This document shows positions 31,801-39,312 of a stretch of DNA of 64,000 bases, one piece after another (the first letter of the stretch is position 1; the number at the start of each line of letters is the position of its first letter). The DNA comes from an uncultured Mediterraneibacter sp. (GTDB lineage: Bacteria; Bacillota; Clostridia; Lachnospirales; Lachnospiraceae), in the NCBI GenBank assembly GCA_944377745.1, contig CALWFV010000003.1, positions 1 to 64,000 of the forward strand, in the 5' to 3' direction. Under the pieces are notes generated by a model that searched no databases, had not been told where the DNA came from, and saw only the letters and a program-made list of their open reading frames with translations. The position numbers and the translations under genes are program-made.

Positions 31801-31829
31801 AAAATAACACATTCCCCAAAATGTGTCAA
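31801..31829 (-). promoter_or_regulatory. Sigma-A promoter of rplJ-rplL
   Basis: Minus strand: -35 TTGACA (31824-31829), 17-base spacer, -10 TATTTT (31801-31806). It begins 18 bases past the jetD stop, so the Wadjet genes end just outside this unit. Confidence 0.82.
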
Positions 31830-31846
31830 GGTTTTCTTTCGCTTTT

Positions 31847-33082
31847 TCAGACCTTTTTCAGACAGGATGCCAGAAGGATTTCCTGTTCAATCTCCATTCC
31901 GCTCTCAAGAATACAGCTCTTTAATTCTTCCAGTTCACCGGCATCCAGCTTCTCCAGCCTCTCTCTTTTGGAATCTCCCTTTTTTCTGTTCTTGACCGTA
32001 TCATCAAGCGGGATTCCCGCCCCCTGGCTCAGTGCCCTGTAAAAGGTCTCTCTATCCATTTTATAAGGTTTTAGTCCGGGAAAAATGTTCTTTTTATTGA
32101 ATTGAAAGATGCGGATCCCGCCCAGATCCATATCGCCCCAGTGAAAATATTCTGTCCCTTCCTCCGCCACTGCAGCGATTCCTTTTAAAAATGCGATCTC
32201 CTTCGGAGAAAAGAATCCATGACAGAACAGGTAGAGAGTATCGGGACGATATTCCATATCTTCATAGTTCGTTTTATTCTCTATCACAAGGACTCTCTTC
32301 ACATCGGGCAGTGCTTCAGGAACCGCGTGTTCCAGAGTCTGTGCATTGACGACAGTGCCATAGCGGGCATTCGACGTGTCGACAGATGGGCCTGCCCCCA
32401 TCTGATAGCGCAGGGGTCCTTTCCACTCCAAAGTCTGCGAGTAAGTCAGGATGCCGTGCACTTTCAAAAGTTCCTCATCTGTCATCCCCTCCTCGTAAAA
32501 GGGAGAGTATTGTCTGAGAACCGACAAAACCCTGGACTGATACTCTTGTTCAAAAGTCTTCGTCTTTCCAAAAACCATCGCGCTGAACACACGGCGCCAT
32601 ACAGGTTTTTCCAAATAAAGCACGCTGTTCAGGCATCTGAAAAAAGGCTCATCATCAAAGTCAACGCTCTTTACTTCATCTCCCTTTTCCAGCCTGTTAA
32701 GATTCCTCTCATAATAGGGTGTCAGCCACGTTCCTTCTGCCCGGGCGCGCCACTCCTCTGTCCGCCTGATATACCGCTTCTGCCTGTGTCTCGGATCTTC
32801 TATCCCTTCCCTCTCGCACAGAACCGGCATAATGTCCACTGAATAGTGTATCTCTCTGATGTCCGCTCCCAGATCCTCTTTCGTGAACTGAAGGAGTCCT
32901 TCACGCTTCAACCGATCTGCCTGTTCGACCAGAGCGCTCCGCCCTCCGACAATCTCAAACACCGCAGAATCAATCTTAGTGTGCTTCATTCCCTTTAACG
33001 AGCCTGCCCGGTATGCATTTTTATTGATCTGCCCGATCAGATACCGGGCCAGTGTCATCTTTGGGGTCTTCATTTTTTCCAT
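31847..33082 (-). CDS. jetD: Wadjet JetD, Toprim-fold DNA nuclease subunit
   Basis: Nuclease arm of the Wadjet/JetABCD system, which cleaves circular plasmid DNA after the SMC motor has extruded it. The 411-residue product has an N-terminal DUF3322-like part and a C-terminal Toprim (DUF2220) part. Visible Toprim residues are the Glu in LVIENKTNYED (E268), the Gly-containing loop CHGFFSP and the metal-binding pair in GDMDLGG (D317, D319). The gene begins 3 bases after the jetC stop and ends 18 bases before the rplJ promoter. The catalytic residues are intact, so it should be active. Assignment rests on motifs and on gene order. Confidence 0.88.
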   Translation of the reverse strand: MEKMKTPKMTLARYLIGQINKNAYRAGSLKGMKHTKIDSAVFEIVGGRSALVEQADRLKREGLLQFTKEDLGADIREIHYSVDIMPVLCEREGIEDPRHRQKRYIRRTEEWRARAEGTWLTPYYERNLNRLEKGDEVKSVDFDDEPFFRCLNSVLYLEKPVWRRVFSAMVFGKTKTFEQEYQSRVLSVLRQYSPFYEEGMTDEELLKVHGILTYSQTLEWKGPLRYQMGAGPSVDTSNARYGTVVNAQTLEHAVPEALPDVKRVLVIENKTNYEDMEYRPDTLYLFCHGFFSPKEIAFLKGIAAVAEEGTEYFHWGDMDLGGIRIFQFNKKNIFPGLKPYKMDRETFYRALSQGAGIPLDDTVKNRKKGDSKRERLEKLDAGELEELKSCILESGMEIEQEILLASCLKKV

Positions 33083-33085
33083 CGG

Positions 33086-38531: not shown

Positions 38532-38562
38532 TACATTCTCCTGTCAGTTACTTTTATGCAAT

Positions 38563-38604
38563 AATCCCCCGACAGATCCCGGCTACGGGCCCCGTCGGGG
38601 GATT
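38563..38604 (-). terminator. GC-rich hairpin between rplA and jetA (weak or leaky terminator)
   Basis: Arms AATCCCCCGAC/GTCGGGGGATT form 11 perfect base pairs with a 20-base loop. On the minus strand it is followed by ATTGCATAAAAG rather than a T-run, so it may only partly stop transcription from rplA into jetA. On the plus strand it is followed by TCTCATTTTT. Confidence 0.6.
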
Positions 38605-38619
38605 TCTCATTTTTATAAA

Positions 38620-39312
38620 TTATGCGAGTTTCATCGGGTTAACCTTTACGCCAGGGCCCATTGTTGATGTAAGAGTCACACTCTTCAGGAACTGTCCCTT
38701 AACAGCTGCCGGTCTGGCCTTGTTAATCGCATCGATAAGCGTCTGGAAGTTGTCCGCTAACTGCTCCTCAGTAAAGGATGCTTTACCGATCGGCACGTGG
38801 ATGATATTTGTCTTGTCCAGTCTGTACTCGATCTTACCAGCTTTAATCTCGTTGATAGCCTTTGTTACGTCCATTGTAACTGTTCCCGCTTTCGGGTTCG
38901 GCATGAGACCTTTCGGTCCAAGTACACGTCCGAGACGTCCGACAACACCCATCATATCCGGTGTTGCAACAACAACATCAAAGTCAAGCCATCCCTCGTT
39001 CTGGATCTTCGGGATCAGGTCATCTCCTCCGACGAAATCAGCGCCTGCCGCTTTTGCTTCCTCTGCCTTTGCGTCTTTCGCAAACACAAGGATGCGGACC
39101 TTCTTACCTGTTCCGTGCGGAAGAACTACCGCGCCACGGATCTGCTGATCCGCATGACGTCCGTCACATCCCGTTCTGATGTGAGCCTCGATTGTCTCAT
39201 CGAATTTTGCTGTTGCTGCTTTCTTTACTAATGCGACTGCCTCTTCCTTATCGTAGAGATTTCCTCTCTCGATCAGTTTCGCAGCCTCGATATATTTCTT
39301 TCCTCGTTTCAT
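38620..39312 (-). CDS. rplA: 50S ribosomal protein L1
   Basis: L1-stalk protein of the 50S subunit, 230 residues from the ATG at 39312 ([12 protein letters not shown]), with AAGGAGG upstream; the longer frame from 39360 is rejected. Family blocks are [20 protein letters not shown], [14 protein letters not shown] and [13 protein letters not shown]. In bacteria L1 also represses rplK-rplA translation by binding the mRNA, and a candidate site lies just upstream at 39331-39360. It is followed by the jetABCD genes rather than by rplJ. Confidence 0.97.

Follow-up and report, generated by a model that had tools for sequence, protein, structure and literature searches.

A type I Wadjet module at the rplA/rplJ junction of a Mediterraneibacter genome probably combines a resident JetABC complex with a lost-and-regained JetD nuclease cassette

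Type I Wadjet, also named JetABCD, MksBEFG or EptABCD, is the described system to which the locus studied here is closest. According to passages of a review (PMC10586767), all four Wadjet subunits are required for plasmid restriction, with JetABC sensing and JetD cutting, and MukBEF and MksBEF may themselves derive from a Wadjet-like defence system. Part of another paper describes Wadjet as blocking conjugation in C. cellulovorans (PMC12287153). The MksBEF condensin of Pseudomonas aeruginosa has no MksG and is a three-subunit SMC complex found beside Smc; sections of one paper give it a role in chromosome organisation and segregation (PMC7485682), and a passage of another contrasts it with the plasmid-acting MksBEFG of C. 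glutamicum (PMC7083940). Among open-licence PMC papers, we found none describing the loss or exchange of JetD within a JetABC lineage. The module described below has the same four subunits, order and profiles as type I Wadjet, and its JetD fold is close to those of the solved JetD and MksG. It differs in that jetD appears to be separately inherited, and in that jetD-less jetABC is common across the family.

The window, which is the whole stretch of 64,000 nucleotides that was analysed (contig CALWFV010000003.1 of an uncultured Mediterraneibacter sp.), carries jetA-jetB-jetC-jetD as four complete co-directional ORFs of 473, 211, 1117 and 411 amino acids on the minus strand between rplA and rplJ. 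The ORF map thus agrees with the preliminary description, which had placed a four-gene module at this junction. Its figure of 88 bases for the gap between rplA and jetA also stands, and the distance from jetD to the -35 box of rplJ is 17 bases rather than the 18 it gave. The features are, in the direction of the genes:

38620..39312, minus strand: rplA, last gene of the upstream ribosomal unit (TIGR01169, E 1e-102)
38556..38610, minus strand: terminator-like hairpin 3' of rplA with a broken U tract, AUUAUUGCA (-33.8 kcal/mol, z -4.4)
37110..38531, minus strand: jetA, kleisin (PADLOC and Pfam profiles)
36399..37034, minus strand: jetB, KITE, DUF4194 (PADLOC and Pfam profiles)
33086..36439, minus strand: jetC, SMC ATPase with Walker A GKSGSGKST and Walker B LVLLDEAFSKMD (profiles and motif scan)
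31847..33082, minus strand: jetD, Toprim nuclease, xenologous in the window genome (profiles, JetD tree and fold match)
31769..33115, minus strand: putative imported cassette comprising the last ~10 jetC codons, jetD and the rplJ promoter, up to the invariant L10-leader box (identity blocks; edges set by eye, +/- about 30 bases)
31801..31829, minus strand: rplJ promoter-like site TTGACA-17-TATTTT, within the imported cassette (10-of-12 promoter match)
31663..31805, minus strand: L10 leader or attenuator, with the 3' crossover in its conserved box (RF00557, 84 bits)
31034..31609, minus strand: rplJ (ORF and NCBIfam scan)
30584..30961, minus strand: rplL (label from position and sequence)

Profile searches placed all four proteins in type I, as expected if the module is a complete Wadjet system, which was the reading first given. 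The best PADLOC profiles were JetA1 (E 8.7e-216), JetB1 (5.7e-106), JetC1 (E 0, 1454 bits) and JetD1 (1.9e-141), with which the window proteins aligned nearly end to end, and Pfam matches to JetA, DUF4194, SbcC_Walker_B and JetD_C exceeded their cut-offs. An NCBIfam scan gave no match for window JetA, JetB or JetD and sub-cut-off matches for JetC, and a PDB search by sequence gave none for JetB, JetC, JetD or the JetD profile. The JetC motifs said to be intact were recovered: Walker A and Walker B were matched, and the SGGEGQ signature is visible in the translation. Likewise, the Toprim Glu and DxD reported for JetD are found as E268, D317 and D319, which are invariant in 15 JetD rows and which we take to be catalytic. 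With a structure model of JetD (pLDDT 89.7), the best PDB fold matches were the solved C. glutamicum MksG and P. aeruginosa JetD (8b7f, E 1.1e-9; 7til, E 4.4e-8), at TM-scores of only 0.27-0.32. A whole-genome search found a single JetA match in the window genome. Judged by these profiles, the module is a genuine type I Wadjet.

JetC was found in 42 of 58 Mediterraneibacter genomes (E <= 0.001), a count that takes in other Wadjet families and weak SMC-like matches. Within the genus, 40 junctions from 39 genomes have rplA and rplJ on one contig (G312, which may be a mixed bin, contributes two). Thirteen of these junctions are empty and span 206-452 bases, and 27 are filled, 17 with jet genes and ten with other cargo. 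The proteins scanned at the ten non-jet junctions include glycoside hydrolases, PTS and MFS sugar transport, PfkB, an ABC ATPase, an FAD oxidoreductase and large surface-type proteins; no integrase was noticed in an informal look over the junction cargo. Because empty, jet-filled and other-cargo versions coexist in the genus, the rplA/rplJ junction is, to judge from its contents, a permissive, general insertion place. It shares with known permissive junctions and defence hotspots the property that one core-gene junction carries different cargo in related species, but unlike in defence hotspots the cargo is not mainly defence. We rejected the idea that the junction is such a hotspot, as 20 insert proteins from the ten non-jet junctions returned three weak PADLOC matches (1e-5), to a beta-galactosidase-like fusion model and PDC-S10, all on enzyme-like domains. 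Relatives in which the locus is empty or holds something else, which the preliminary description had named as evidence against its account, therefore exist, though the closest relatives keep jetABC there. Of the 20 other genera ranked highest by rplA similarity, 19 have rplA and rplJ on one contig, and the gap exceeds 1 kb in 12 of those 19 (among the matches listed, with gaps read by eye from the best 150 of 284 and 282 genomes). Two genomes carry more than one such locus or its parts: G312 (DWXK01 contigs) has two different rplA-jet-rplJ loci, L003 and L036, with JetC 86% alike, and is probably a mixed bin, and in G325 the contigs of L067 and L068 each end in jetD, the two copies being 75% alike and one lying beside rplJ, which points to a tandem jetD or a mixed bin.

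The JetABC and JetD parts of the window module have conflicting phylogenies. In the JetABC tree the window groups with locus L033, then with L002 and L003, and its JetC is 97, 96 and 95% identical to those of these three sisters and 73% identical to that of L015. Two of the sisters, L033 and L002, have no jetD, with deletion end points that differ between them when read by eye; in L003 jetD is broken into two frames with an internal gap. The JetD tree, by contrast, joins the window and L015 at 100/100. Window JetD shares 83% identity with its L015 counterpart and 59% with the broken copy of L003, and a clade of window and L003 JetD was rejected (p-AU 2.9e-5). Ribosomal distances from the window are smallest to L002 (0.032) and reach 0.118 to L015, and the likeness of window and L015 JetD is therefore not a matter of host relatedness. 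JetABC itself follows the host: over 12 loci, compared by nucleotide distance, the Mantel correlation is r 0.74 (p 0.0002).

The same conflict can be located along the DNA. Identity between the window and L015 is 53-85% over jetABC, 83-89% over jetD and 93% in the leader block, and then 86%; the raised identity starts at the last jetC codons and runs via the rplJ promoter to the L10-leader box GCAACTGCCGAAGACAGTAGGTGCTG. Downstream of this box the window matches its sisters again, with identity to L033 back at 97-100% past the leader block. One crossover lies where jetC ends and the other within the L10 leader, both flanks being conserved. The simplest reading is that window jetD and the rplJ promoter were imported from an L015-like lineage, presumably by recombination. 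L015 is not itself the donor, its jetD differing from that of the window at 15% of nucleotides. By way of the imported cassette, a defence gene would have displaced the promoter that drives an essential ribosomal operon. L10 attenuation has been described for B. subtilis (PMC4538822).

Among the 17 junction modules, jetD is full-length in ten, broken in one and missing from six, which contradicts the earlier suggestion that loss by deletion would be dangerous at this site. Over 39 JetA loci, jetD is adjacent in 19 (including L003) and absent in 17, and the contig ends in three; one of the 17, R. faecis L018, has a broken jetC and a jetD about 9 kb downstream. Many of the genomes are metagenome bins, in which an absent jetD can be an assembly gap, and several of the jetD-less ones are isolates (M. 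catenae L032, Dorea phocaeensis L034 and Schaedlerella arabinosiphila L026). On the JetABC tree of 38 rows, JetD state requires at least ten changes. Shuffled labels require 12.1 on average, with 78-81 of 500 shuffles as low as the real labels, so that JetD state is hardly clustered on the tree. Locus L087 keeps a 46-aa jetD remnant with a stop after jetC (E 3e-10), and in its relative L089 the matching flanks enclose a full jetD. A second candidate scar, in L037, was not counted, being a weak match (E 0.021) combined with a reading by eye. There is also a second type I JetABC family with a fixed chromosomal place in the genus (L081-L086, L091 and L093-L096), next to genes that we take to be YfcE-, NYN- and Nad-like. 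Seven of its 11 loci have no jetD, and six of the seven form one clade whose JetC proteins are 69-81% identical.

Intact jetABC without jetD extends beyond the genus. A sample of 299 Lachnospiraceae genomes, one per genus, yielded JetA in 55 genomes at 57 loci: JetD is adjacent at 29 of these, is found only elsewhere in the genome for 13 and has no match in the genome for 15, 13 of which lie in genomes that are 96% complete or more. When 20 of the 28 non-adjacent loci were fetched, 18 proved to be complete jetABC with no jetD in the stretch, the exceptions being G262, with jetA alone, and G026, with jetD about 7 kb downstream. These counts show that intact jetABC without jetD is common in Lachnospiraceae. 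No gene is shared 3' of jetC among the loci listed, and a common replacement gene for jetD was rejected on this ground. About 7-9 kb of unrelated genes separate jetC from jetD in L118 (G026) and L092 (R. faecis).

Loci without jetD could in principle rely on a JetD encoded by a different Wadjet of their genome. A JetD match does occur elsewhere in ten of the 19 genomes of jetD-less or contig-end loci (three strong, seven weak), as it does for the 13 loci of the family sample. Against such borrowing in trans, no JetD match at E <= 0.001 was found in the other nine of the 19 genomes, nor in the genomes of 15 of the 57 family loci, although the same search recovered JetD in 11 of 11 jetD-bearing genomes. 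We consider this explanation distinctly unlikely.

We then turn to selection. Over JetA, JetB and JetC, dN/dS is 0.026-0.139 in jetD-less pairs and 0.039-0.113 in jetD-bearing pairs with measurable dS, bearing in mind that dS is >1 or saturated in many pairs. The values for the window and L033 (0.257 for JetA and 0.815 for JetB) come from very small dS and are little informative. For JetC in the first family, dN/dS is 0.057-0.108 in jetD-less and 0.046-0.064 in jetD-bearing pairs; as it is somewhat higher in the former, mild relaxation is possible. Selection might also have relaxed on JetA, which is published as the subunit that contacts the nuclease; we rejected this, as JetA/JetC dN ratios overlap between the groups. 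Overall, nuclease-less jetABC is under purifying selection. These data bear on whether jetD-less loci are decaying remnants, in which JetD would have been shed under conditions that make plasmids worth having, too recently for jetABC to have degenerated as well. Such decay would fit the near absence of clustering of JetD state, by which many losses are recent, as well as the mildly higher JetC dN/dS and the broken jetC in R. faecis (L018/G308). It fits poorly with the clade of six jetD-less species in the second family, where jetABC is full-length with dN/dS of about 0.06-0.12 at dS >=1, and with the full jetABC at 18 of the 20 loci fetched from other genera. Decay is, in our judgement, an unlikely explanation.

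Our preferred reading, which we hold to be probable, is that the window module is a type I Wadjet with two histories, that of a resident JetABC SMC complex and that of a lost-and-regained JetD nuclease cassette. JetABC would have settled in the permissive junction, after the rplA hairpin and before the rplJ promoter, in one Mediterraneibacter clade, and would thereafter have followed its host, with JetD as a nuclease cassette that could be lost and regained. In the window lineage, homologous recombination, with one crossover at the 3' end of jetC and the other in the L10-leader box, would have brought in a foreign jetD together with the rplJ promoter. By analogy with other type I systems, window JetABC most likely works on small circular DNA by loop extrusion, and JetD most likely cuts upon completed extrusion. 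In jetD-less relatives, JetABC would most likely act as a non-cutting SMC complex beside Smc, in plasmid or chromosome handling. Of 16 jetD-less genomes, 15 gave an Smc match, 14 of them above the cut-off, and for this reason we rejected the idea that JetABC substitutes for Smc. The jetD-less relatives, as distinct from the window, resemble P. aeruginosa MksBEF in having an SMC-kleisin-KITE operon without a nuclease gene. They differ from it in sitting inside type I JetABC clades with jetD-bearing members at the same place, and loss and regain can therefore be followed.

That the motor has been kept for long while the nuclease was repeatedly lost or exchanged suggests an independent use for the motor. 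More tentatively, JetABC of Lachnospiraceae might serve mainly as a resident SMC complex whose job does not depend on a nuclease, with JetD an optional weapon acquired via recombination and the passage between defence and condensin ongoing in both directions. Neither the machine, which is a known one, nor its permissive junction is out of the ordinary; the unusual points are the conservation of the motor without the nuclease in many lineages and the apparent regain of the nuclease by the window genome through an exchange that can be traced. With close relatives that differ only in jetD at one chromosomal place, the defence-condensin transition could be tested directly. Should JetABC work without JetD, surveys that count four-gene Wadjets miss a widespread complex, and surveys that count JetA, B or C alone overstate plasmid defence.

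Finally, we asked how jetA might be expressed. The absence of a promoter before jetA, noted in the preliminary description, was borne out in that no site of 9 of 12 or better was found in the window. Whole-region counts of promoter-like sites (11, shuffled mean 8.7) and terminator-like sites (13, shuffled mean 10.1) are near chance, and single sites there are therefore weak evidence. The hairpin 3' of rplA, which had been overlooked, is present in the window and in the relatives' rows listed and argues against free read-through into jetA; its U tract is AUUUUUGCA in L002 and L003 and broken in the window, so some read-through from rplA to jetA is possible there. Among 17 relatives scanned (L015 left out), 12 have a dedicated jetA promoter (a match reached by <=2 of 200 base shuffles), the matches of L010 and L013 are not above chance, and L033, L011 and L012 have none, as in the window. 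Since 12 of 17 relatives own a jetA promoter and these three and the window do not, promoter loss is apparently a derived state of short-gap lineages. Expression of jetABCD by read-through past the rplA hairpin is possible in the window lineage.

It had been proposed that the site couples defence to growth, being selected so that read-through from the ribosomal unit transcribes jetABCD and ties plasmid surveillance to growth rate. The lack of a jetA promoter in the window and L033, the gap of just 88 bases and the broken U tract would all be compatible with this. The relatives speak against it: as far as sequence can tell, jet genes are not co-transcribed with rplA across them, given the 12 dedicated promoters, the opposite-strand ORFs (a DUF4143 ATPase and a DDE transposase) that separate rplA from jetA in L045 and L060, the about 45 kb between the two genes in another genome, and a junction that is often empty or takes unrelated cargo. 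Selection of the site for growth coupling thus seems highly improbable; we reject it as a general account on these comparisons, though some coupling may exist in the window lineage. The 45-kb insert, in G343 (L055-L057), holds many co-directional genes and, judged from ORF starts, resembles a kinase/phosphatase-regulated secretion cluster.

Elsewhere in the window, on the minus strand, a T-box leader lies at 7240-7482 (RF00230, 112.6 bits), and group II intron pieces (RF02001 D1-D4-3 and RF00029) lie at 42337-43403, upstream of the nusG region, with an ORF fragment between them that is presumably maturase-like.
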